Shown here piece by piece: positions 16,110 through 28,645 of a stretch of 30,626 nucleotides of DNA. The translations under genes were made by a program, and so were the position numbers. The stretch spans positions 1 to 30,626 of IMG/VR virus record IMGVR_UViG_3300028653_000042. One strand, written 5' to 3'. This DNA comes from a virus. Numbering within the stretch: position 1 is the first letter of the stretch; every line of letters starts with the position of its first letter. The notes under the pieces are model-generated. The model was not told where the DNA came from, made no database searches, and saw only the letters and a program-made list of their open reading frames with translations.

Positions 16110-16751
16110 ATGGAAAAATATATTTGGTCGTTAGATATAAGTACCACAAATATTGGTAGTTGTTTAATGGATGAAAAAGGAAATCTTATTGAATTAAAAC
16201 ATCTTGAATTAAAAACAGATAAAGATGTTCCCGTTGTGGATAGAATTATACATAAAGCAGAAATATTTAGAAAATATGTGGAAGAATATAAAGAACGTAT
16301 ATTGAATGAACTTAATGGCGAAATAATATATATTTTTATAGAAGAACCTTTGGGTGGTAGCAACAACCCCAATACAGTATCCATGCTATTTGGATTTAAT
16401 GGAATTTGTACTTATATTTTATATCAGATATTTAATTTATATCCAAAAAAGATTAGTGTATATGATTGTCGTAAATCATTTCTTGTTGATTTAGTTCATA
16501 CTGAAAAAAGAAAGGGTGAAATTTGTGAAGTATTATCATTTCCACCAGAATATAAAAATAGAAAAAAAGAATATATTTGGGAAAAGGTAACAAAATTAGA
16601 AAAAAGTGTTAAATGGTTTTATAAGAAAAATGGAACTCCATCTGATATAAACTACGATATGTCTGATAGTTATGTTGTTTCAATTTCTGGTCTAATTACT
16701 TTAGGTATTCTTACTAAAGAAAATTGGAAAAAAAGATATTTATCAATATAA
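16110..16751 (+). CDS. RuvC-like Holliday junction resolvase / RNase H-fold nuclease
   Basis: 213 residues. The start SLDISTTNIGSCLMDEKG carries the first catalytic Asp (D9) on the first strand of the RNase H fold. A second acidic site lies in IFIEEPLGG (E78/E79), and a late pair in NYDMSDSYVVS (D183, D186), the place of the third and fourth carboxylates of RuvC-type enzymes. Such enzymes cut branched DNA during recombination-dependent replication and packaging. Position among recombination and repair genes agrees. Direct proof of junction specificity is not possible from sequence; another RNase H-fold nuclease role is the alternative. Confidence 0.78.
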   Translation: MEKYIWSLDISTTNIGSCLMDEKGNLIELKHLELKTDKDVPVVDRIIHKAEIFRKYVEEYKERILNELNGEIIYIFIEEPLGGSNNPNTVSMLFGFNGICTYILYQIFNLYPKKISVYDCRKSFLVDLVHTEKRKGEICEVLSFPPEYKNRKKEYIWEKVTKLEKSVKWFYKKNGTPSDINYDMSDSYVVSISGLITLGILTKENWKKRYLSI

Positions 16752-16773: not shown

Positions 16774-17082
16774 ATGAAATACATATATTTAATTCAATCT
16801 CAAGAAGACGGTTACTATAAAATAGGTATATCCAAAAATCCTAATAAAAGACTATTGACATTACAAACAGGAAATTCTTCGCCATTAAAATTAATTAATA
16901 CTTATCAAACAGAATTTGCTGAGAAAATAGAGGGTACTTTACATCGAAGATATAAACATCTACATAAAGAAGGGGAATGGTTCGATTTATCTATTGAACA
17001 TGAAGTTTATTTTATCGATGAATGTAAAAAAATTGAAGACAGTATTAAGTATTTAGTGGAAAATAATAATGTTTTTATATGA
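16774..17082 (+). CDS. GIY-YIG superfamily protein (T5orf172/MUG113 type)
   Basis: 102 residues. KYIYLIQ, then GYYKIGISKNPNKRLLTLQT followed by GNSSPLKL, then EKIEGTLHRRYKHL and GEWF match the T5orf172/MUG113 branch of the GIY-YIG fold: Tyr of YLI, Tyr-Lys-Ile-Gly, the conserved Arg (R26) and a later Glu. Members cut DNA or are predicted to. The stop overlaps the next start by 4 nt (ATGA at 17079-17082), so it is translationally coupled to the zinc-ribbon nuclease that follows; the pair may move as one cassette between the RuvC-like gene and the metallophosphoesterase. Confidence 0.85.
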   Translation: MKYIYLIQSQEDGYYKIGISKNPNKRLLTLQTGNSSPLKLINTYQTEFAEKIEGTLHRRYKHLHKEGEWFDLSIEHEVYFIDECKKIEDSIKYLVENNNVFI

Positions 17083-17972
17083 AAATGTTCAAAAAAAGAA
17101 AATTAAATATCGAAATATTTAAAATAATAGCAAATGAAAGAGGTGGTGAATGTTTAAGTAACATCTATATTAATGGTAAAAGTAAATTAGAATTTAAATG
17201 TAGTGAAGGTCATATTTGGAAAACAATTCCTGAGTGCATTAAAAATAATAAAACTTGGTGTTCTATCTGTGCTAATAAAAACATACCATTAACAATAGAA
17301 GAAATGAAAAAATTAGCTATCGAAAATGGTGGAGAATGTTTAAGCGACACATATATCAACAATAGTACCAATTTAAAATGGAAATGCAAAAATGGTCATA
17401 TCTGGGATGCAACACCAAATAAAGTTAAGTCAGCAAAAACTTGGTGTTTAGAATGTTCAGGTTCGAAAATAAAAACAATTGAATATATGCAAGAAATTGC
17501 AAAAGAAAAAAATGGTAAATGTTTATCAGAAAAATATGTTGGTGCTCATTCTAATTTAATATGGGAATGTGAATTTGGTCATCAATGGTCTGCACCATAT
17601 CATCTAATAAAAAATCATAATTGTTGGTGTCCTACTTGTAAAGATTCTAAAGGTGAAAAAATAATAAAAAATTTCTTAGATGAAAATAATATTGAATATA
17701 TCAAACAAAAAAGATTTAAAGATTGTAGAAATAAATATCCACTACCTTTCGATTATTATTTACTAAATGAAAATATTACAATAGAATATGATGGAATATT
17801 ACATTACAAACCAATTGAATATTTTGGTGGAGAAAAAGAATTGGAGCATAGAAAATATTTAGATAAAATTAAAGATGAATATTGTAAAAGTAATAATATT
17901 CGTTTAATTAGAATTCCATATTTTGAAAAAAATATTAAAATAAGATTAAAAAATGAACTTGGATTACCATAA
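17079..17972 (+). CDS. Zinc-ribbon-array nuclease A: three repeats plus Vsr-like PD-(D/E)XK domain
   Basis: 297 residues. Three repeats of about 62 residues (about 10-64, 72-126, 133-187) each carry GGECLS.xYI, then Cys-x3-His-x-Trp (KCSEGHIW, KCKNGHIW, ECEFGHQW) and a closing W-C-x2-C. The first zinc site would be C41, H45, C61, C64. Residues about 190-297 form a Vsr/DUF559-like nuclease domain: E193, D225 (PFDYYL), E236 and D238 (IEYDG) and H242. The layout suggests a free-standing homing-type endonuclease in which the repeats bind DNA and the C-terminal domain cuts. It overlaps the GIY-YIG gene by 4 nt. The C-terminal DNA is nearly identical to that of the 19494 gene (see repeat entry). 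Confidence 0.82.
   Translation: MKMFKKRKLNIEIFKIIANERGGECLSNIYINGKSKLEFKCSEGHIWKTIPECIKNNKTWCSICANKNIPLTIEEMKKLAIENGGECLSDTYINNSTNLKWKCKNGHIWDATPNKVKSAKTWCLECSGSKIKTIEYMQEIAKEKNGKCLSEKYVGAHSNLIWECEFGHQWSAPYHLIKNHNCWCPTCKDSKGEKIIKNFLDENNIEYIKQKRFKDCRNKYPLPFDYYLLNENITIEYDGILHYKPIEYFGGEKELEHRKYLDKIKDEYCKSNNIRLIRIPYFEKNIKIRLKNELGLP
17861..17921 (+). repeat. 61-nt near-identical segment shared with 20486-20546
   Basis: By eye, 59 of 61 bases match the segment at 20486-20546; the two differences are both purine transitions. It encodes DKIKDEYCK(S/N)NNIRLI and RIPY at the end of the nuclease domain. The rest of the two genes is far less similar, so this looks like recent gene conversion or domain exchange. 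Confidence 0.85.
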
Positions 17973-17976
17973 ACCC

Positions 17977-18007
17977 TTGCATTATCTATAAATTTATTAT
18001 AGATTTG
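17977..18007 (+). promoter_or_regulatory. Bacteroidota-type housekeeping promoter for the metallophosphoesterase
   Basis: TTG at 17977-17979, 20-nt spacer, TAGATTTG at 18000-18007, a full match to the TTG / TAnnTTTG pattern of the Bacteroidota primary sigma factor. The start codon at 18041 is 33 nt downstream. This suggests early, host-polymerase transcription of the gene. Confidence 0.75.
17984..18004. repeat. 8-bp inverted repeat overlapping the promoter
   Basis: ATCTATAA (17984-17991) and TTATAGAT (17997-18004) are perfect inverted copies separated by 5 nt. The right arm overlaps most of the -7 box. It could be an operator, or a weak terminator for the preceding gene, though no T run follows. 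Confidence 0.55.
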
Positions 18008-18040
18008 TCAAAAATATAAATTTATTTAAAATTTTATAAT

Positions 18041-19477
18041 ATGAAAAAAGAACGAATTGAAAAGGCAATAGAAGTTATTAATTATGCAATAAAAAATCAA
18101 TTATCAGTAAAGGAAGCCTCAGTTAAATGTGGGTATTCCGATACTTATGTTAAAAATATTAAAGCATTGGTTTATGATTATTATGAAAATAATAATTTGG
18201 ATGATGACTTATTTACTTTATTTAATAATGCATATGAAGAATATAAATATTATCGTGGCTTTGGTGCTAATGATGATAATATTACAAACAAAGAAAAACA
18301 AAGTAATGATGGAAAAACAATTATCACTGGTAATGGAAATGAAATTCAAGTCGAATGGAAAACAGGTTCAAATTATCCAGCAAATCATATAAAAACTCTC
18401 GATAAACTACTTGAGGTAGCAGAAATTGATTTAGATATTTGGAAAGTTAAAGATTTTGTGGTTAATAAATGGGATGTTACTTCATGGAAAAAAGAAAATC
18501 CACAAACAATTCAAAATTTTCAAGTAAAAGCTCGTCTTGAAAAAGATGTTCAAACTAGTGAAGTAATAAATATAGAAAAAGTTTTTGCTGACATGGCACA
18601 AACATATAAACCACCTATTTTAAATGTTACACCAAAAATACAAAAAAAATCTGAAGAAAATAATCTACTCGAAATTTCAATATTCGATTTACATCTTGGT
18701 AAACTTTGTTGGGGTAAAGAAACTGGTGAAGATTTTGACGTTAAAATAGCTAGTACTAGATTTAAAAATGCAATTGAAACTCTGTTACGTCATGCATCTG
18801 GTTTTAAGTATAATAGAATTTTATTTCCACTTGGTAACGATTTTTTTAATAGCGATACTATTTTAAATACTACAACGAAGGGGACCCCGGTTGACGAAGA
18901 TCTCCGATGGAGGAAAACATTTTCTTTAGGCGTAAAATTATTAATTGATGGAATAAATATATTAAAACAAATTGGAGTTCCAATAGATGTTCTTATTATA
19001 CCGGGAAATCATGATTTGGAGAGGTCTTATTATATGGGTTCTTATTTAGAAGCATGGTTTAATAATGACCCACAAGTTAATGTTAATAATAATGCTACAC
19101 TAAGAAAATATTATAATTTTGGTGATGTTTTATTGGGATTTACTCATGGTAGTGAAGAAAAAGAAAGTTCATTACCACTTTTGATGGCAACTGATGTTGA
19201 ATCAAAGCCATATTGGTCTGATACTAAATATCATGAATGGCACTTAGCGCATATTCATCGTAAAAGAAATATTAAATATAGTGTGACTGATAATAAAGAA
19301 AGAATATTAAATGAAGACCTTGGTGTTACAGTTAGATATTTGTCAAGTTTGGCAGGAACGGACCAGTGGCATTTTTCCCGTGGATTTATAGGTTCCATCA
19401 AAGCTGCAGATGCTTTTATTTGGAACGATAAATTAGGTTTGCAAGCTCATTTAAATGCTAATTTAGATATAGATTGA
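18041..19477 (+). CDS. Calcineurin-like metallophosphoesterase with N-terminal helix-turn-helix
   Basis: 478 residues. The catalytic domain (about 205-478) has the full motif set: D216-L-H218 (IFDLHLGK), GND with D267, GNHD (322-325), TH369GSEE, and AH404IH406. These residues bind two metal ions in phosphodiesterases related to SbcD/Mre11 and repair nucleases. Residues about 10-48 look like a helix-turn-helix (VKEASVKCGYSDTYVKNIKA), an unusual addition that may guide the enzyme to DNA. The middle (about 80-200) is unassigned. It has its own host-type promoter, and a zinc-ribbon-array nuclease gene on each side. Substrate unknown; DNA processing is the likely role. Confidence 0.82.
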   Translation: MKKERIEKAIEVINYAIKNQLSVKEASVKCGYSDTYVKNIKALVYDYYENNNLDDDLFTLFNNAYEEYKYYRGFGANDDNITNKEKQSNDGKTIITGNGNEIQVEWKTGSNYPANHIKTLDKLLEVAEIDLDIWKVKDFVVNKWDVTSWKKENPQTIQNFQVKARLEKDVQTSEVINIEKVFADMAQTYKPPILNVTPKIQKKSEENNLLEISIFDLHLGKLCWGKETGEDFDVKIASTRFKNAIETLLRHASGFKYNRILFPLGNDFFNSDTILNTTTKGTPVDEDLRWRKTFSLGVKLLIDGINILKQIGVPIDVLIIPGNHDLERSYYMGSYLEAWFNNDPQVNVNNNATLRKYYNFGDVLLGFTHGSEEKESSLPLLMATDVESKPYWSDTKYHEWHLAHIHRKRNIKYSVTDNKERILNEDLGVTVRYLSSLAGTDQWHFSRGFIGSIKAADAFIWNDKLGLQAHLNANLDID

Positions 19478-19493
19478 GATAATTAAAATATTA

Positions 19494-20603
19494 ATGTCAA
19501 GAAAATCAACAACAGAAGAATTTATAATAAAAGCCAAGAATGTTCATCACGATAAATATGATTATTCATTAGTTAATTATATTAATAATAGGACAGAAGT
19601 TAAAATTGTATGTTTAATTCATGGTGAATTTGAACAACAACCCGATTCACATTTACGTGGTCGAGGTTGTCCAATTTGTTCTGGAAATTTAAAGTCAAAT
19701 ACTAATGAATTTATTGAAAAAGCAAATAAAATTCATGGTAATAAATATGATTATTCTAAAGTTGATTATATTAATAGACAAACTGACGTTATAATTATTT
19801 GCTCTCAACATGGTGAATTTACACAAGTTCCAAAATCTCATTTAATTGGCAAGGGATGTTCAAAATGTAATGGTGGTGTAAAAATAAATACTAACGAATT
19901 TGTTGAAAAAGCAAAAAATGTTCATGGTGATAAGTATGATTATACTAAAGTTGTTTATATTAATAATACCACAGATATTATAATAATTTGTCCTAAACAT
20001 GGTGAATTCATACAAAAACCAAATTCTCATATTGATGGGTGTGGTTGTTCATTATGTAATGGTTCTAAATGTAATAAAGATATTTTTATTGAAAAAGCAA
20101 AAAAAGTTCATGGTGATAAATATGATTATTCTAACGGTATTTATATTTCAAATAGAAATGAGATAGAAATTATTTGTTCAAAACATGGTTCGTTTTTTCA
20201 AAATGCAAGTAATCATTTACGTGGTCGCGGTTGTCCTAAATGTAAATGTAGTAATGGTGAACAACAAATAATTAATTATTTGACAAATAATAACATTAAA
20301 TTTGAACATCAGAAAAAATTTAATGATTGTGTAGGAAAAAAATATAAACTTCCTTTTGATTTTTATTTACCTGATTTAAACATAATCATTGAATATGATG
20401 GTAAACAACATTTTGAATTAGTAAAGTTTAATAAATTAACGCCTGATGATGAAGCATTAATTGAATTTATAAATTTAAAACAAACAGATAAAATTAAAGA
20501 TGAATATTGTAAAAATAATAATATTCGTTTGATTAGAATTCCATATACAGTTAAAAATATTGAAGAATTTTTGAAAAATAACTTAGAAAACATTAATAAA
20601 TAA
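19494..20603 (+). CDS. Zinc-ribbon-array nuclease B: four DUF723-type repeats plus Vsr-like domain
   Basis: 369 residues. Four repeats of about 62 residues (about 7-62, 70-125, 132-188, 194-250) follow the DUF723 pattern: F..KA...H..KYDYS...YI, then C-x2-HGEF.Q.P.SH, then G-x-G-C-x2-C. In repeat 1 the metal ligands would be C40, H43, C59 and C62. Residues about 255-369 form the nuclease domain: E256, D289 (PFDFYLPD), E300 and D302 (IEYDGKQH) and H306. It is placed between the metallophosphoesterase (16 nt) and a coiled-coil gene (4 nt). Repeats 3 and 4 are very similar in DNA, which suggests recent duplication. Likely a homing-type endonuclease; a defence or repair role is not excluded. Confidence 0.84.
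   Translation: MSRKSTTEEFIIKAKNVHHDKYDYSLVNYINNRTEVKIVCLIHGEFEQQPDSHLRGRGCPICSGNLKSNTNEFIEKANKIHGNKYDYSKVDYINRQTDVIIICSQHGEFTQVPKSHLIGKGCSKCNGGVKINTNEFVEKAKNVHGDKYDYTKVVYINNTTDIIIICPKHGEFIQKPNSHIDGCGCSLCNGSKCNKDIFIEKAKKVHGDKYDYSNGIYISNRNEIEIICSKHGSFFQNASNHLRGRGCPKCKCSNGEQQIINYLTNNNIKFEHQKKFNDCVGKKYKLPFDFYLPDLNIIIEYDGKQHFELVKFNKLTPDDEALIEFINLKQTDKIKDEYCKNNNIRLIRIPYTVKNIEEFLKNNLENINK
20486..20546 (+). repeat. 61-nt near-identical segment shared with 17861-17921
   Basis: Partner of 17861-17921 (59 of 61 by eye). It lies at the same place in the nuclease domain of gene B, while the repeat arrays of A and B belong to different repeat types. Confidence 0.85.
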
Positions 20604-20607
20604 AATA

Positions 20608-21123
20608 ATGGCAAAAGAGAAAAATTTAACAAAATTAGCAAAAGGCAATAAAGTATCTACGAGTGTAGTAGAAACAAAAAAGCCTATTAGTCCAGCAGAA
20701 CAACGTGACTTAAAAGCAAAAGCAGCAGTAGAAGAATTACTTCATGACGTACCATTGACACTTGAAAAGAAAGAAACAATATCTGAAGTTGAAGAAAATA
20801 AAGAACAAAAGCAAGGTATAGAATGGCTTGAAGAACAAGTTCAACTACTTTCAGAATCTAATGAAAATCTAAAAGCAGAATTAATTCTTGCTAAAGATGA
20901 TTATTCAAGAATTTTTGAAGAAAATCAACGACTTAAAAATGGCGGTGGAGATGAAGCAATAAAATTAAAAGTAATTGAATTATTTAATGAATTGCAAAAT
21001 AATCACCTTCAATTAGGTAGTGACCCAATAACAAATATTGGTAATTTTAGAATTTATTGTCCCGGTTTCTTAAATCGATTAATAATATTCTTTCCTTTCC
21101 TAGAAAGTGTTAGAAAATTTTAA
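20608..21123 (+). CDS. Coiled-coil protein of unknown function
   Basis: 171 residues. A basic N-terminus (MAKEKNLTKLAKGNK), a Glu/Lys-rich middle and a clear coiled coil at about residues 70-115 (IEWLEEQVQLLSESNENLKA and onward). After a GGGD hinge, the last 50 residues form a more globular end with several aromatic residues (FRIYCPGFLNRLIIFFPFLE). It starts 4 nt after the nuclease B gene and is the last gene before a strong terminator. The family is not recognised. Confidence 0.72.
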   Translation: MAKEKNLTKLAKGNKVSTSVVETKKPISPAEQRDLKAKAAVEELLHDVPLTLEKKETISEVEENKEQKQGIEWLEEQVQLLSESNENLKAELILAKDDYSRIFEENQRLKNGGGDEAIKLKVIELFNELQNNHLQLGSDPITNIGNFRIYCPGFLNRLIIFFPFLESVRKF

Positions 21124-21144
21124 CAATTAAAATAAATTAAATTG

Positions 21145-21185
21145 ATTTGCCTTAAAACTTATAGGTTATAAGGCAAATTTTTTTT
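21145..21185 (+). terminator. Rho-independent terminator
   Basis: Perfect 10-bp stem ATTTGCCTTA / TAAGGCAAAT with a 14-nt loop, then a run of T. It ends the unit 18041-21123 and lies only about 12 nt ahead of the primase start codon. Confidence 0.92.
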
Positions 21186-21192
21186 ATATTTG
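21185..21192 (+). promoter_or_regulatory. Possible -7 box for a nearly leaderless primase transcript
   Basis: TATATTTG matches the Bacteroidota -7 consensus TAnnTTTG and follows the terminator's T run directly. No TTG lies at the expected -33 distance. Transcription would begin at about the ATG (21197), giving a leaderless or almost leaderless mRNA. Moderate support only. Confidence 0.45.
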
Positions 21193-21196
21193 TGGT

Positions 21197-22258
21197 ATGA
21201 TAAAAGGTTTAGAATTTCACAGCATAATTGGTAGTATTTTCCCTGATGCTAAAGGGTTAGGTGTATCCGAACAAATACAGGCCGAATGTCCTATCTGTGG
21301 TGGAGGTAATAAAAGAAATCTTGAAATATCAACATCTAAGCTAGTGTTTAGATGTTGGTCGTGTGAGCCTAAATTCAGTGGATCATTAAAACGTCTTATC
21401 TATCTATATGGTTCCAAGTCAGATATTGATTTGTTTAAATCATACGCAAGTATCTATAATAGTGGTAGTTATTCATATGAAAATAATAATGAGGAAGAAG
21501 AATACATACAAATACGTCTTCCAGAAGAAATGATATTATTTTCTAAAATGGAAGAAGGAAATCCAGAACATTTCGAAGCATATAATTATCTTGTTAATGA
21601 TAGAAAAATAAGTAGAGATATAATTTTAAAATATCGGCTTGGTTTTTGTACAACAGGAAAATATGCTAAAAGAATAATTATTCCATCTTATGATAATGCT
21701 GGGTTAAATTATTATATTTCTCGTACTTACGATAAAAAAGAGAAGAAGATGAAGTATAAGAATCCAACTATTGATAAAAATAAAATTATTTTTAATGAAG
21801 GTTATATTAATTGGGATTCAACAGTTTATATTTGCGAAGGGGTTTTCGATGCATTCTCATTACCCAATGCAATTCCATTATTAGGTAAAACATTATCTAC
21901 AACATTATTTAATAAATTAAATGAATTAAAACCAAAAATAATTGTATTATTAGACCCTGATGCAATAAAGAATGCAATATTACTATGTCAAACATTACTT
22001 ACAATTTATGTGGGTTGTGAAGATAGAATTAGAATTGTTGAATTACCAATTAAAGAGGATATCGATAAACTTAGAAAAGATTATGGAATGGATAAAGTAA
22101 TTGAAACGCTATATACTGCAAGAAAACTAAATAATAATGATTATTTTATGAGTAAATTAAGTAAGCCTTATGACAATCGTAACAGAGCAAGAAGATACAA
22201 TACTTATTCAAAATATTTTGAATGGGAATCAACAAGCGCAAAAAGAGCTATACAATAA
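21197..22258 (+). CDS. DnaG-type primase
   Basis: 353 residues. The N-terminus has a CHC2-like zinc ribbon: C31-P-I-C34 and C53-W-S-C56. The Toprim domain follows, with E214 in VYICEGVFDA and the D253-P-D255 pair in IVLLDPDA. It makes RNA primers for lagging-strand synthesis at the phage fork. It is shorter than bacterial DnaG (about 600) and near the size of T4 gp61; no helicase-binding domain is evident. The last 30 residues are encoded in DNA that also encodes the start of the sigma factor (89-nt overlap, +1 frame). Confidence 0.87.
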   Translation: MIKGLEFHSIIGSIFPDAKGLGVSEQIQAECPICGGGNKRNLEISTSKLVFRCWSCEPKFSGSLKRLIYLYGSKSDIDLFKSYASIYNSGSYSYENNNEEEEYIQIRLPEEMILFSKMEEGNPEHFEAYNYLVNDRKISRDIILKYRLGFCTTGKYAKRIIIPSYDNAGLNYYISRTYDKKEKKMKYKNPTIDKNKIIFNEGYINWDSTVYICEGVFDAFSLPNAIPLLGKTLSTTLFNKLNELKPKIIVLLDPDAIKNAILLCQTLLTIYVGCEDRIRIVELPIKEDIDKLRKDYGMDKVIETLYTARKLNNNDYFMSKLSKPYDNRNRARRYNTYSKYFEWESTSAKRAIQ

Positions 22259-22766
22259 ATATAAAAAATCTGTTGAATGTTTTCTAAAAAAGAAATATTT
22301 TAATCTTAATGATATTGAAGATAGTGTATCGGAAATAATGATTAAAGTCTTTATGAATTTAAATACATTTGATGATACAAAATCAAAATTTAGGTCATGG
22401 GTTTTCAGTATTGCTAAAAACTATATGATAGATAAGTGGAGAAATAATTCTTATTCCACAACATTTAAAACAAGTGATATATCTTTTACATCAATAATGG
22501 ATAATACGTTAGATAAAGCATCATCAACATTTATGAATAATACATATTCAGCACATAACACAGAATTTGAAAATAATAATTCTATTAATTATATTTCAAC
22601 ACAAATATCACCACAAGATTTTAAATTATTAAATATGAAATACGTTCAAGGTTATAATTATGGTGAAATTGGTAAAGAATTTAATGTTACGAGCAGTACC
22701 ATTAGTAATAGAATTAACTATATTAAAAGTAAACTTAAAAAAAATAAAACAGAAATAATGTATTAA
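22170..22766 (+). CDS. Phage-encoded ECF-like sigma factor
   Basis: 198 residues. Region 2 is at about 22-92: AQKELYNKYKKSVECF, the acidic DIEDSVSEIMIKVFMNLNTF, then FRSWVFSIAKNYMIDKWRNN. After a Ser/Thr/Asn-rich linker, region 4 is at about 146-190: a YVQGYNYGEIGKEF helix-turn-helix and SSTISNRINYIKSKLKK. It would direct host RNA polymerase to phage promoters. The only ATG that keeps all of region 2 is at 22170, inside the primase gene, so the overlap is real coding in two frames. A natural target is the TATTTATA motif seen ahead of the virion genes, but that link is inference. Confidence 0.87.
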   Translation: MTIVTEQEDTILIQNILNGNQQAQKELYNKYKKSVECFLKKKYFNLNDIEDSVSEIMIKVFMNLNTFDDTKSKFRSWVFSIAKNYMIDKWRNNSYSTTFKTSDISFTSIMDNTLDKASSTFMNNTYSAHNTEFENNNSINYISTQISPQDFKLLNMKYVQGYNYGEIGKEFNVTSSTISNRINYIKSKLKKNKTEIMY

Positions 22767-22827
22767 TAATTAGAAATTTTGTAACATAATTAATTTATTT
22801 GCGTATATTAATATAAAATAAAAACAT

Positions 22828-22974
22828 ATGGAACAAGAAATTTTTAAGAATAAACTAAAAAAAGCAGTCATTGATGGTAAAACATCAATGTATGGAAGAC
22901 CAAGAACTAATGAAGAAATATTTGAATTTAAACAAAAAGTTCTAAAATTATATGCTAGTGGTTATGGTATATAA
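22828..22974 (+). CDS. 48-residue protein, possible cut-down helix-turn-helix
   Basis: ATG at 22828, ending with two consecutive TAA codons just before a terminator. The sequence is basic at the N-terminus and contains SMYGRPRTNEEIFEFKQK then VLKLYASGYGI. The 'GRPR...F...VL.LYASGY' pattern often introduces a helix-turn-helix in transposase or regulator N-termini, but here the protein stops where the recognition helix would begin. It is 61 nt after the sigma factor and convergent with Hsp20. Real expression is likely from its own spacing and terminator; function unknown. Confidence 0.6.
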   Translation: MEQEIFKNKLKKAVIDGKTSMYGRPRTNEEIFEFKQKVLKLYASGYGI

Positions 22975-22975
22975 T

Positions 22976-23003
22976 AAAAAGGCATCATTATCGATGCCTT
23001 TTT
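22976..23003. terminator. Bidirectional terminator between convergent genes
   Basis: AAAAAGGCATC and GATGCCTTTTT are perfect inverted copies with a 6-nt loop; the A and T runs let it work in both directions. It serves the 48-residue gene on the plus strand and Hsp20 on the minus strand. Confidence 0.92.
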
Positions 23004-23023
23004 ATTTTTGAAACTCTTAATTT

Positions 23024-23455
23024 CTACTTAATCTCAATCGTTTTCTTACATAATTTAGTATCGTTCTTTAATTTAGGAATAATTACTTTAAGTATTCCAT
23101 CAACCATAGTTGCATCAATATTATCCTTATCAACATTATTTGACAAAGTAAATAACCTTTCATATTTACCAAAATAAGTTTCTTTATGATTATATTTTAA
23201 ATCATTAACTTCTTTACGTTCAGCTTTGATTGATAACACATCATCTTCAATATCAATTTTAATGTCTTCTTTTTTGACACCAGCAAGCGAAAACTCGACT
23301 TGATATTCATTATCATTTTCAATGATATCATGAATTGGCGTTTTGATATCACAATCAATTGATTTAATTAATGAATGATTATAAAAATCATCAAAAAATT
23401 TGTCATCAAAAATACTACTAAGAATTGATGTTGGTTTACTGTACTTCATTAACAT
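23024..23455 (-). CDS. Small heat-shock protein Hsp20 (alpha-crystallin family)
   Basis: 143 residues, the usual size. The alpha-crystallin domain spans about 38-133: TPIHDIIENDNEYQVEFSLA, then GVKKEDIKIDIEDDVLSIKA, YFGKYERLFTLSNNVD, and the hallmark DATMVDGILKVIIPK. It is an ATP-independent holdase that keeps unfolding proteins soluble. The N-terminal arm contains FDDKFFDDFYNHS, typical of Bacteroidota versions. It is the only plus-to-minus switch inside the core of the window and has its own host-type promoter and terminator, so it is probably an acquired host gene expressed independently. A start at the second Met (MKYS) is an alternative. Confidence 0.94.
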   Translation of the reverse strand: MLMKYSKPTSILSSIFDDKFFDDFYNHSLIKSIDCDIKTPIHDIIENDNEYQVEFSLAGVKKEDIKIDIEDDVLSIKAERKEVNDLKYNHKETYFGKYERLFTLSNNVDKDNIDATMVDGILKVIIPKLKNDTKLCKKTIEIK

Positions 23456-23497
23456 AGTTTTAAAATTTTAAATAAAGTTATTTTTCATGCATTAAAT

Positions 23498-23529
23498 CAA
23501 ATCTAATACCAAGTATATTTACATGACAA
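23498..23529 (-). promoter_or_regulatory. Bacteroidota-type housekeeping promoter for hsp20
   Basis: On the minus strand, TTG (complement of 23527-23529), a 21-nt spacer and TAGATTTG (complement of 23498-23505). The start codon lies about 43 nt downstream. Same architecture as the promoter at 17977-18007. Confidence 0.75.
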
Positions 23530-23570
23530 TTTGGCAATTAAAATTATAATAATATTTATTATTGTCATGT
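23521..23570. repeat. 10-bp inverted repeat pair between divergent genes
   Basis: ACATGACAAT at 23521-23530 and ATTGTCATGT at 23561-23570 are perfect inverted copies, about 40 bp centre to centre (near four helical turns). The left arm covers the TTG of the hsp20 promoter. Arms on the same helix face could hold a looped repressor, or form a cruciform; either is inference. Confidence 0.6.
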
Positions 23571-23609
23571 GAAATTAATAAATATAAAAAATGTTTTGAT
23601 GATTTGGCA

Positions 23610-23618
23610 GTATTTATA
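23610..23618 (+). promoter_or_regulatory. Putative phage promoter motif GTATTTATA ahead of nuclease C
   Basis: GTATTTATAGATAAA with 12 nt between the box and the ATG at 23631. It lies inside a longer frame that opens at a TTG at 23562, and favours the shorter start. Confidence 0.55.
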
Positions 23619-23630
23619 GATAAACATTAT

Positions 23631-25247
23631 ATGGGAAAAACAATAAAAATTACACAAGAAGATGCAAACGCAAATGTTATAAAACGCTGTTGTGAAATTA
23701 ATTGTACATTAACATCAAATTTTGAATATTTAAATGTGAGAAAAACCAGATTAAAACTTCATTGCAATATTGATAATTATGAATGGGAAACATCATATGC
23801 AAGTTTTATTAATTTAAAATCAAAATGTCCTAAATGTTCTAATTGTGCAAAAAAATCATATTCAGAATTTTTGGAAAAAATAAAAAATCGTTGTAATGAA
23901 AGGGAATATACATTATTAAATATTCCATTAAAAATGAACACGAATTGTAAAATTTTATTAAAATGTAATAAAGATAATCATGAATGGTATGTTACATATA
24001 ATAATTTTATTAGAAATGGAAGGGGTTGTTCTAAATGTGCAAAAAAACTTAAGCCAACACAAAATGAATTTATTGAAATGTTATTAAACCGTTGTAATGA
24101 ACTAGATTATAAATTATTGGAAACCCCTAAATATGAAAATAGTAAAACAAAAATTCATCTGAAATGTAATAAAGATAATCATGAATGGTATGTTACATAC
24201 AATAGTTTTATTAATCATAATAGTGGTTGTTTAAAATGTGCAGGTAATTTAAAAATAACACAAGATGATGCAAATATTTTAATAAAAAATAAATGTGAAA
24301 AAAATAATTACATATTAATTGAACCGTTCTTGCATAAAAATAATCAATCAAAAATTCATTTAAGATGTAATAAAGATAGCCATGAATGGTTTATGTCCTA
24401 TAGAAATTTTATTAATTTAGATAGAGGTTGCCCAAAATGTGGGGAAATTAAATCTCATCTTAAACAAAGAAAATCTAAAGTTGATGTAATAATAAATATA
24501 GAAAATCGATGTAAAGAATCAAATTATACTCTAATTGAACCATTTGATTATACTGGTAATACAACACCAATTAAATTACGATGTAATATTGATGGACATG
24601 TTTGGAATGTTGATTACAAATCATTTATTCGTGGAAATGGTTGCCCTAAGTGTTCAAAACGAGCTAAACCATCTCAAGAAGATGCAAATAATATAATTAA
24701 AAATATTTGCATTAAGAAAAATTATATTTTAAATAAAGAATTTACATATAATACTGCAAGCAAAACATATTTAGATTTACATTGTAATATACACAATTAT
24801 GATTGGGAAACAAGTTATGTTTCTTTTGTAAATCAGAATTCTGGTTGTCCATTATGTGGTCAAAAATTTAATTTACTAGAACAAAGAATAAAAGAAATAT
24901 TAATTCAAAATAAATTTAATTTTATTCATAATTATAAAAATAAGGATTGGTTTGGAAAACAATCAATAGATTTTTATTTTCCCGAATATAAAATAGGGGT
25001 TGAGCATCAAGGTGAGCAACATTTCATACCATCAAAATTTTTTGGTGGAAGAAAAGCTTATATTGAAAATGTTAAACGTGATAAGAATAAATATGAATTA
25101 TGTAAAAAACATGGCATTAAACTTTTTTATTTATCGCTAATAAAAAAAGATATTATTCCTGATAAATATTTTGATAAAATTTATACTAATGTTAATACAT
25201 TAATAATTGATATTAATAAATTTATTGAAGAAAATCATACATATTAA
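23631..25247 (+). CDS. Zinc-ribbon-array nuclease C: six repeats plus Vsr-like domain
   Basis: 538 residues from the ATG at 23631. The frame could be extended to a TTG at 23562, but the ATG lies seven residues before the first repeat and just after the TATTTATA motif. Six repeats of about 65 residues follow the pattern (T/S)Q(E/D)(D/E)A..I...C....Y.L, then C-N-x-D-x-H/Y-x-W, and G-C-x-x-C. The C-terminal nuclease domain has IDFYFPEY, then VEHQGEQHF and FFGGRKAYIE; the D of the EYDG motif in A and B is replaced by Q, a pattern I recall from other Vsr-like phage proteins. Repeats 2 and 3 are almost identical in DNA over 52 nt. It lies between Hsp20 and the SbcD-SbcC fusion. A homing-type role is inferred. 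Confidence 0.8.
   Translation: MGKTIKITQEDANANVIKRCCEINCTLTSNFEYLNVRKTRLKLHCNIDNYEWETSYASFINLKSKCPKCSNCAKKSYSEFLEKIKNRCNEREYTLLNIPLKMNTNCKILLKCNKDNHEWYVTYNNFIRNGRGCSKCAKKLKPTQNEFIEMLLNRCNELDYKLLETPKYENSKTKIHLKCNKDNHEWYVTYNSFINHNSGCLKCAGNLKITQDDANILIKNKCEKNNYILIEPFLHKNNQSKIHLRCNKDSHEWFMSYRNFINLDRGCPKCGEIKSHLKQRKSKVDVIINIENRCKESNYTLIEPFDYTGNTTPIKLRCNIDGHVWNVDYKSFIRGNGCPKCSKRAKPSQEDANNIIKNICIKKNYILNKEFTYNTASKTYLDLHCNIHNYDWETSYVSFVNQNSGCPLCGQKFNLLEQRIKEILIQNKFNFIHNYKNKDWFGKQSIDFYFPEYKIGVEHQGEQHFIPSKFFGGRKAYIENVKRDKNKYELCKKHGIKLFYLSLIKKDIIPDKYFDKIYTNVNTLIIDINKFIEENHTY
23961..24012 (+). repeat. 52-nt near-identical unit in gene C, copy 1
   Basis: Matches 24162-24213 at 50 of 52 bases by eye; both differences are silent-type transitions in the repeat region encoding KCNKDNHEWYVTYN. 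It marks a recent repeat duplication or conversion. Confidence 0.85.
24162..24213 (+). repeat. 52-nt near-identical unit in gene C, copy 2
   Basis: Second copy of the unit at 23961-24012, one repeat (201 nt) downstream, in the same frame. The other repeats of the gene carry more diverged versions of the same segment. Confidence 0.85.
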
Positions 25248-25318: not shown

Positions 25319-28300
25319 GTGGTCAGAAAAATAATCCAACTTGCTGATATTCATATCCGTAAGTCACCTTCACGTAATGAAGAATATCAAAAAGTATTTG
25401 AGAATTTATATAAAAGTTTAAAGGAACAAAAGCCCGATAGGATAATAATTGTGGGTGATTTGGTTCACGATTATTTGAATTTAGAAAGCGAACAATTAAT
25501 TTTAGCTTCAAATTTTTTAAATACATTGGCTAGTATTGCTCCAGTTAGAATAACTCGTGGTAATCACGATTTTCTTCGTAAAAATAATAAAAGAACTGAT
25601 AGTATTGAAGCCATAACAAAAATATTAAATAATCCCAACATAATTTATTATAATAAGACAGGATTTTATGATGATGAAAATGTAACTTGGGCAGTCTTCC
25701 ATCATGGTGATAAGAACAACAATCCACATAAAACCAAACAAGGTAAACAAATTGAAATTGATAGAAAAACTAATGCTAGAATATATATTGATTTATTTCA
25801 TGATCCAATAAATGGTTGTAAAACTACAACTGGTTTTGAAATGAAAAGTAAGTCTTATTATAAGATAAGCGACTTTAAATCAGACTATTCTATGTTCGGC
25901 GATATTCATATCCAACAATATTTGGATAAAAATAAAACTAAAGCGTACTCAGGAAGTTTAATATCGCAGGATATAACCGAGGGAGATTCTTGTTTCCACG
26001 GTTACATCTTATGGAATATTTTAGATAAAACAGTACAAGAAATTCCAATACATAATGATTATTCATTTAAAAATATAAGAATAACACAATATACTGATTT
26101 TGATGATTTAGATTTGGTGATAGACAACCCAACTAAATTTATGAAAGTTAGGTTTGTTTGGGGTACTTTACCACAGACACGTACAAAAGAAAATGAGAGA
26201 AAAGTAATTGAATATTTAAAGTCTAAATATGAAAATATTATCATTTCACATAAAAATGAATTTCTTGAAAATGAAAAAATTGATGTAAACGAAAATATCA
26301 CTTTACAAAATGTAACTGATAAAACAGTGCAACATGAAATATTTAAAGAATATTTAACTAAAATTGGTTGTGATGAACAATTGATTACTGACGTGCTTGC
26401 GCTCGATGAGGAAATTTTAAATGAAATTGAGATAACTACGGATCAAAGTATTGAATGGAATGTAATTAAATTTGGTGGTAAAAATTTCATGTCGTATGAC
26501 CAATTTGATATTGATTGGCGAAATGAAGATGGTTTATATCAGATAGTCGGAAAAAATGCGAACGGGAAAACAACAATTTTAAAATCAATTAGTTATATAC
26601 TTTTTGGGAGAACATTGGAAACTGAAACTCGAATGAAGTTTGGTGATATGCGTTTTATAAATAATAGAAATGATGCAAATTTTTGTGAAGCATATCTTGT
26701 ACTTGAAGCAAATGGTGAATATTTCGGTATTAAAAAGAAAACAGAAATCATAAAAAATAGAAGTGGTGAGATTACAAGTACACCAACCACATTAAATTAT
26801 TATGCATTTGCAACACCTGATGATGTAATGAATGAAGAAACATCATTAGTAAAACTTGATGAAGATAGACGAGTGAAAACTCAAAAGAAAATTGAATCAA
26901 TTATTGGTAGTTATGATAATTTTATGCGAATCGTAATGACTACCTCAGACACGCTCAATCGTATTCTCAGTAATGACCAATCTACATTTATTGACAGTAT
27001 TTTATTTGATAGTGGTTTGGACATATTCGATAAAAAACTTGAAGGATTTAAAGTTTATCAAAAACGTGTGAATGAAAAATCGAGAGTTAGTTGTAATGTT
27101 GAAATTACCAATGCAGAAAATGCAAGACTACAACAAGAAATTGCTACGCTTGAAGATGAGATAAGTAATATTGAGACAATAAAATTACCAGATATTATAA
27201 ATCGAATTGAGATTGGTAGAAAATATGTTGAAGACCTAACGAAGAAATTATATAAAATAGACACCGAAATCTACAATTTGGACGTAGATAAGGTACGAAA
27301 TGATATAAGTGACAATAATAAAAACATTGTTGAAATAAAGGCACGAGAAAGGGTTTTAAAGCAAAGTATATTACCGTTAAAACAAACATATGATATAGAA
27401 AGATTAAATGTTCTTCTTGAAAAGAAAGAAGCACACAAGACCAATGAATATAATCAAAAATTATTAATTAAAACACTTGAAGGGGAAAAATCAAGTGAAG
27501 AACATTTAATAGAAATAATTAATGGTGATATTTTTAGGTTAAAACAAGATGGAGTTAAATTAAAAAAAGAAATTGTTGATTTAAAAAATAGTAAGGTTTG
27601 CAGTCAATGCGGACAAATAATTGATAAACAAGAACATAAAGACCACATTGAAAAGACTGTTAAAGAAAAAGAAGTTGAGATGTATGCAATTAGTGATAAA
27701 ATCAATACTAAGCAAACAATTGATACTGATAAGCATAAAGTAATTATTAGTGAAAAAAACACTAAAATAGAAAAAATTAAAGAAGAAATAAAACATTCTT
27801 CATTGGAAATGGAAACAATTCTTAATGAAATTGGAACATTAATTAACGAAAAAAATGATGTCGAAAAAAGAAAAGAATTACAAACTGAATTAGATTCAAT
27901 TCCAACTAAAGTTCAAAATGAAGAATTAAAAATTAGTATACTTGAGCAAAAAATTACTAATCATGAAAACAGTTTACTTCAAATAGAAGAAAATCAAAAA
28001 ATTGAAAAGGGAATCGCTACTGCTAAATTAAAAATAGCTGACCTTGAAACCGATAAGACTAATGAGAATGAAAATGTTTATATTAGAAAAACAAGTGTTG
28101 GTGAAAAACAATTTAAAATTAAAAGTAATGAAGCAATAATTATAGAATTCAAAGCACAAGAATATAGAGATAACATTATGAATTTATATAAAAAATGTGT
28201 TCATCGTGATGGTATACCAAGACAAATGTTATGTAATTATATTATTCCAAAAATTAATTTAACTTTGGAGAATATATTATCGGTAGCACCATTTAAAGTA

Positions 28301-28645
28301 TGGCTTGATATTGATGATTTGAAACCTAAGTTAAAATATAATGATAGACCAGCAATTATTGATTGTATTAGTGCAAGCGGTAAAGAAAGAACATTTTCAA
28401 GTGTGGTATTAAAATTTGCATTAAATCAAATTAATGTTAAAGCAAAACCAACAATTTTTTTACTAGATGAAGTAATGGGTAAACTAGATGAAAATAGTGT
28501 AGAAGAATTTATTGAAATATTACAATTAATAAAAAATAATATGAAAAAAGTGTTAATTATTGAGCAAATGGCTAATGTTAATCCCGATTACACTATTGAT
28601 GTAAAATTAAATGATGATGGAATTTCATCACTGAGTTTAGAATGA
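25319..28645 (+). CDS. Fused SbcD-SbcC (gp47-gp46, Mre11-Rad50) recombination nuclease
   Basis: 1108 residues from a GTG. The N-terminal half (about 1-370) is an Mre11/SbcD nuclease: D10-I-H12, GD47, GNH83D, FHH129GD, and GDIHIQQ near 194-200, where the first His of the usual GHxH is Asp. The C-terminal half is the Rad50/SbcC ATPase: Walker A GKNANGKT (411-418), two coiled-coil arms (about 590-755 and 770-950), a zinc hook C761-S-Q-C764, a signature region SASGKE (1018-1023, usually SGGE) and Walker B IFLLDE (1046-1051). In T4 the two activities are separate proteins that resect double-strand ends for recombination-dependent replication. Here both are in one chain. No frameshift or stop lies at the junction near residue 375. 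Confidence 0.92.
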   Translation: MVRKIIQLADIHIRKSPSRNEEYQKVFENLYKSLKEQKPDRIIIVGDLVHDYLNLESEQLILASNFLNTLASIAPVRITRGNHDFLRKNNKRTDSIEAITKILNNPNIIYYNKTGFYDDENVTWAVFHHGDKNNNPHKTKQGKQIEIDRKTNARIYIDLFHDPINGCKTTTGFEMKSKSYYKISDFKSDYSMFGDIHIQQYLDKNKTKAYSGSLISQDITEGDSCFHGYILWNILDKTVQEIPIHNDYSFKNIRITQYTDFDDLDLVIDNPTKFMKVRFVWGTLPQTRTKENERKVIEYLKSKYENIIISHKNEFLENEKIDVNENITLQNVTDKTVQHEIFKEYLTKIGCDEQLITDVLALDEEILNEIEITTDQSIEWNVIKFGGKNFMSYDQFDIDWRNEDGLYQIVGKNANGKTTILKSISYILFGRTLETETRMKFGDMRFINNRNDANFCEAYLVLEANGEYFGIKKKTEIIKNRSGEITSTPTTLNYYAFATPDDVMNEETSLVKLDEDRRVKTQKKIESIIGSYDNFMRIVMTTSDTLNRILSNDQSTFIDSILFDSGLDIFDKKLEGFKVYQKRVNEKSRVSCNVEITNAENARLQQEIATLEDEISNIETIKLPDIINRIEIGRKYVEDLTKKLYKIDTEIYNLDVDKVRNDISDNNKNIVEIKARERVLKQSILPLKQTYDIERLNVLLEKKEAHKTNEYNQKLLIKTLEGEKSSEEHLIEIINGDIFRLKQDGVKLKKEIVDLKNSKVCSQCGQIIDKQEHKDHIEKTVKEKEVEMYAISDKINTKQTIDTDKHKVIISEKNTKIEKIKEEIKHSSLEMETILNEIGTLINEKNDVEKRKELQTELDSIPTKVQNEELKISILEQKITNHENSLLQIEENQKIEKGIATAKLKIADLETDKTNENENVYIRKTSVGEKQFKIKSNEAIIIEFKAQEYRDNIMNLYKKCVHRDGIPRQMLCNYIIPKINLTLENILSVAPFKVWLDIDDLKPKLKYNDRPAIIDCISASGKERTFSSVVLKFALNQINVKAKPTIFLLDEVMGKLDENSVEEFIEILQLIKNNMKKVLIIEQMANVNPDYTIDVKLNDDGISSLSLE

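Follow-up and report, generated by a model that had tools for sequence, protein, structure and literature searches.

Homing endonucleases that carry three to five CapR/DUF4379/DUF723-related modules of ~60 aa, followed by an EDxHD/Vsr-like domain of ~100 aa, have been reported from group I and II introns of phages, and these CapR-like EDxHD/Vsr enzymes have thousands of homologs (PMC12350094, NAR 2025). T5orf172 homing endonucleases also contain CapR/DUF723 repeats, which vary in number and recombine with each other, and their genes are located at junctions of essential genes; the CapR repressor of PLE is related to such DNA-binding domains, and CapR-type domains are reported to bind DNA (PMC10448857). 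Among the EDxHD enzymes, I-Bth0305I recognizes a target almost 60 bp in length as a dimer, as described in a review of this group (PMC3943268).

Here, we analyzed a viral stretch of 30,626 nucleotides (hereafter, the window), for which an earlier reading had proposed three modular nuclease genes whose repeats and Vsr-like nuclease domains were known separately. This last point has to be corrected, since the combination of such an array with an EDxHD/Vsr domain is already described (PMC12350094). The three genes, named B, C, and F, are very probably free-standing EDxHD/Vsr homing endonuclease genes, in which the array would guide cutting, repair would copy the gene, and the copies later decay.

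Architecture of the three nuclease genes

All three genes are located on the + strand and encode a zinc-finger module array followed by an EDxHD/Vsr-type nuclease domain. Gene B (17079-17972; 297 aa) contains three modules of the C-x3-H type (17079-17270, 17271-17456, and 17457-17639) and a nuclease domain at 17640-17969. Gene C (19494-20603; 369 aa) has four modules of the C-x2-H type (19494-19679, 19680-19868, 19869-20057, and 20058-20243) before its nuclease domain (20244-20600). Six modules of the C-x4-[H/Y] type (23631-23837, 23838-24038, 24039-24239, 24240-24440, 24441-24653, and 24654-24857) precede the nuclease domain (24858-25244) in gene F (23631-25247), whose 538 aa are counted from the ATG at 23631, a TTG at 23562 being a possible longer start.

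The spacing of the CxxC knuckles (residues 61, 123, and 184 in gene B; 59, 122, 185, and 247 in gene C; 66, 133, 200, 267, 338, and 406 in gene F) gives the same 3, 4, and 6 repeats that had been counted in the original prediction. The repetition itself is also real, with a measured module length of 61-71 aa instead of about 62-67 residues, and several module types do exist, three where at least two had been distinguished before. The proposed C..H..CxxC ligand rule fails in gene F, where Tyr replaces His in modules 1 and 6 and the Cys in helix 1 is constant.

Profile searches with the proteins placed these genes in known families. Gene F matched the Pfam models CapR (E value 4.9e-42; 142.4 bits, cut-off 24.2), DUF4379 (2.5e-25), and DUF723, and gene C matched DUF4379 (1.4e-7; 32.1 bits, cut-off 24.5). 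No relevant Pfam model was found above cut-off for gene B in the Pfam profile search, and its kinship is based on phrog_559 and 38% identity to gene C. All three proteins matched phrog_559 ("HNH endonuclease"), with E values of 1.2e-65 (gene B), 5e-109 (gene C), and 5.5e-75 (gene F), and strongly matched PHROG 9084 ("homing endonuclease"). Because of the E values obtained with Pfam CapR/DUF4379 and phrog_559, the module repeats cannot be attributed to chance. In the nuclease domain of gene C, the EDxHD/Vsr motif consists of E256, D289, H306, and D332, which are invariant in an alignment of 24 homologs including genes B and C. Their counterparts in gene F are found in LEQR, IDFYF, QHF, and KRDK, so that none of the three genes has lost any of the E, D, H, and D residues.

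Predicted fold, zinc ligands, and DNA reading

An AlphaFold model of the gene C protein, built with 24 homologs taken from the loci, reached a pLDDT of 89.6. In this model, each module is predicted to form a helix, a beta hairpin carrying the first two ligands, and a short helix, followed by the CxxC, and the nuclease domain comprises the last 115 residues of the protein. Foldseek ranked Vsr first with this model, and VIA-align gave the nuclease domain Z scores of 11.3 against Vsr (1cw0) and 10.9 against the catalytic domain of I-Bth0305I (3r3p), which bears out the Vsr-like nuclease domain of the original prediction. A single-sequence model of gene F showed the module pattern six times, with a pLDDT below 50 in the nuclease part. 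The Vsr-type PD-(D/E)XK fold is thus assigned by model in gene C, by alignment in gene B, and by motif and profile only in gene F.

Among 445 near-full type-1 modules, the zinc ligands are conserved as C (100%), H (95%), C (100%), and C (100%); together with the predicted fold, these ligands suggest that the modules bind zinc. Most likely, the treble-clef-like modules of an array are arranged along the target DNA. Some treble clefs do not bind DNA, and the arrays might instead mainly contact RNA or proteins or serve as spacers, with specificity located elsewhere; sequence searches of solved structures with the full protein and the nuclease profile gave no significant match, and no solved module relative was found with these queries or the gene C model. 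We regard such a role as very unlikely, since CapR-type domains have been reported to bind DNA (PMC10448857), most modules have a basic net charge, and modules are found with several nuclease types.

The positions that vary between the zinc ligands are 40, 42, 44, 45, 48, and 50 (433 distinct type-1 modules). It is rather doubtful that the modules read DNA one by one by a simple residue-to-base rule, using the residues that vary from the C-x2-H knuckle to the CxxC; the independent same-register ortholog pairs found for a comparison of such a code numbered only three. If they did, the natural arrays of 1 to 11 modules, which already come joined to a Vsr-type nuclease, would represent a new scaffold for programmable DNA binding and a naturally occurring alternative to arrays of the TALE or C2H2 type.

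Core neighborhood and distribution in related phages

Searches with the neighboring genes identified ~40 viral contigs that share this gene order (relatives, designated by L numbers). The genes starting at 16774, 18041, 20608, 21197, 22170, and 25319 are largely constant in them. These core genes include a MUG113/T5orf172 (GIY-YIG-like) ORF of 102 aa (16774-17082, +), which is present in most relatives, a metallophosphoesterase/DNA repair exonuclease-like gene (18041-19477, +), a Toprim DNA primase gene (21197-22258, +), and an SbcD-SbcC-like fusion gene (25319-28645, +), which borders the gene F site together with an HSP20 gene (23024-23455, -). An ECF-type sigma factor gene (22170-22766) overlaps the primase gene and is kept in relatives. 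TnpB/OrfB-like transposon ORFs were also noticed by eye in the same gene cluster of L062 (near 8601) and L082 (near 13883).

The T5orf172 domain is not fused to repeats here: the C-terminal domain of the array proteins is EDxHD/Vsr, and the MUG113/T5orf172 ORF is a separate core gene. We also considered that this ORF and gene B could form one two-part nuclease, which was ruled out because most relatives have the former without the latter.

Genes B, C, and F had been expected to be modular, mobile genes beside replication and repair genes, and orthologs are indeed missing from many relatives. Far from always occupying the same place in all related phages, each of the three is usually absent from the ~40 relatives, in which the neighboring genes are joined; the empty junctions measure 65-126 bp (B), about 0-190 bp (C), and about 125-233 bp (F). 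In a tree of 41 phages based on three core proteins, L056 is placed beside the window and L051 beside both, with a support of 99 each. On this tree, at least six changes are required at junction A (16110/16774) and three at junction C; one change suffices at junction B (the window gene and a scar in L056), and gene F is found in the window only.

Vertical inheritance of all three as core genes, with losses in many relatives, would be compatible with the tree insofar as genes B and C can be assigned to a common ancestor of the window with L056, or with L051. Nevertheless, we consider it extremely improbable, since empty sites prevail on either side of the tree, six and three changes are needed at junctions A and C, and site F is occupied by unrelated genes, among them other types of nuclease.

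Gain, decay, and loss at individual junctions

The first codon of gene B overlaps the 16774 stop codon, and the spacer behind the gene (17973-18040, +) directly follows that stop codon in phages without gene B and therefore marks the 3' edge of the insertion. This shows a precise insertion of gene B, with the stop codon of 16774 on one side and the old spacer on the other. The gene is intact in the window only. In L056, the last codons of gene B, followed by the spacer, lie between the 16774 and 18041 genes; 98 of 122 positions match the window, and the C-terminal codons read KNELGLL-stop (KNELGLP-stop in the window). The scar alone has a score of 27, the highest score among 1674 background blocks being 17.

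An ortholog of gene C with 70% identity is present at the same place in L001/L051, and the gene is absent from L056. A homolog in the distant L084 has 53-55% identity and five modules. Gene F occurs at the HSP20/SbcCD site of the window only; since no ortholog is in place there in any relative, its mobility is judged from this absence and from the other genes at that spot, namely a LAGLIDADG gene in L064 and a 252-280 aa ORF in four others. In the same gap of L136 (8259-9947), a DUF7487-repeat protein with an EDxHD-like motif (by eye) represents another repeat-plus-nuclease combination.

A few fixed junctions between genes repeatedly hold nucleases of this family: 16110/16774 (L059, L063, L076, L079, L085, and L143), 21197/22170 (L064 and L090, next to the primase gene), and 7763/8708 (L088). 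In the nuclease tree, those at 21197/22170 pair and those at 16110/16774 fall into one group of 10 tips, with genes B and F elsewhere. Decayed copies were detected at junction A, where L085 has lost all modules and kept the nuclease domain, and L095 retains only the N-terminus (the first ~16 residues).

These data also bear on the possibility that the three genes are former homing endonucleases that now serve the phage, either as regulators of neighboring operons, like the CapR of PLE, or as weapons against rival phages or satellites. Genes B and C lie directly within the replication/repair operon, gene C is 70% conserved in L051, and a repressor related to such DNA-binding domains has been published (PMC10448857). 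However, all four motif residues are intact in the three genes, L056 has no gene C and only a scar of gene B, and no change in a flanking core gene points to dependence. A phage-serving role is accordingly possible but somewhat unlikely.

A probable footprint in the RuvC-like gene

Junction A of the window carries a probable footprint of a lost nuclease gene. The RuvC-like gene in front of it has an atypical 3' end (16681-16751, +) and terminates in WKKRYLSI-stop, while nearly all relatives end in LGIIK-stop or similar. By mismatch counting, this tail is identical to that of L076 at 61 of 71 nt and to that of L063 at 56 of 71 nt, and in both phages a nuclease gene directly follows it. The segment 16681-16773, consisting of the tail and 22 nt, is common to L063 and L076 only; the tail was not found in ~32 other relatives, and a scan of the whole viral_contigs collection gave no further case. 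L063 and L059 are 92% identical in the 18041 gene and 85% identical in the 15096 gene, but the identity drops to 74% for the body of the RuvC-like gene and to 40% for its tail.

The simplest reading, which we consider likely, is that a nuclease gene and the RuvC tail travelled together and that the window later lost the nuclease gene. The tail shared by L063, L076, and the window could also be an old allele. Core identities are just 60-80%, and conversion tracts are therefore read from few cases.

Module number and combination with other nuclease domains

Type-1 modules were detected in 136 proteins, with 1 to 11 modules per protein and mostly 3 or 4. Their number differs between nucleases at the same junction, with four in the window and L001 and five in L084 at junction C, and three versus four at 16110/16774. 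The junction thus does not determine how many modules an array has, which makes a strict version of the earlier idea that module number sets target length less plausible. Modules 3 and 4 of L084 are 72% identical, which points to a duplication.

Several related arrangements were observed in other contigs. In L033 (6001-7605), six gene-F-type modules are followed by a C-terminal domain (motif VDGYIEKYNICIEWHEKHH) that does not resemble the window's EDxHD domain. Conversely, the same nuclease domain lies behind other repeats (LTGQRFGKLxV...CGC; TIxNIKLWL..NKxYxLLSE) in L043 (5605-6750), L019 (5104-6699), and L022 (4915-6408). At the 20608/21197 junction, GIY-YIG-type genes are present in L068 (12118-13989), L069, L086, L059, L065, L072, and L136. 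They have a ~50-aa module on both sides (WTKEKCxEEALKYK..GWLDEICSHM), which has no Pfam match and occurs about 2, 4, 9, or 10 times by motif count. The genes of L068 and L069, apparently close relatives, are one module apart (624 and 575 aa), and the last two modules in L068 are near-identical.

The family is large and mostly unannotated. Gene C matches 1062 phage records at up to 17 places per record, and many contigs from bacterial genomes and some from archaeal genomes also encode the EDxHD/Vsr-type nuclease domain. That three such genes within 8 kb are unusual was ruled out, as the record with 17 matching places is that of a Klebsiella phage.

Proposed mechanism and comparison with known systems

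As homing endonucleases, genes B, C, and F would act through an array that places the C-terminal nuclease domain, which may then cut the phage allele without the gene. Repair from the gene-bearing genome would copy the gene and some of its flank into the gap between two core genes; such copying is shown indirectly, in that sites were found empty, one site holds a scar, and a flank is shared. The copies subsequently decay and get lost, as seen in L085, L095, and the L056 scar. Arrays change by gain and loss of modules, and modules combine with other nuclease domains, both of which are represented among the loci above. The matched filled, empty, and scarred sites of this phage set define candidate target junctions.

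Among known systems, the intron-borne enzymes of PMC12350094 share the plan of genes B, C, and F, whereas the window genes are free-standing between genes and one of them has six modules. The T5orf172 enzymes of PMC10448857 contain the same module families but differ in their nuclease domain, which is of the GIY-YIG type. Gene F has a tblastn match over 80% of its length (27.5% identity) to I-MsaI of a Staphylococcus phage, whose annotation places it in the region of the terminase gene of phage MSA6, and members of PHROG_559, 681, and 9084 are profile matches to the window nucleases. The Vsr mismatch endonuclease (1cw0, 1vsr) has the fold of the gene C domain but is a repair enzyme without an array. 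I-Bth0305I, the type member of the EDxHD homing endonucleases, shares both the nuclease fold and the E-D-H-D motif with gene C; to our knowledge, its array is not of the CapR type. Compared to these systems, the present analysis adds an account, site by site, of how such genes are gained, decay, and are probably co-transferred in related phages.
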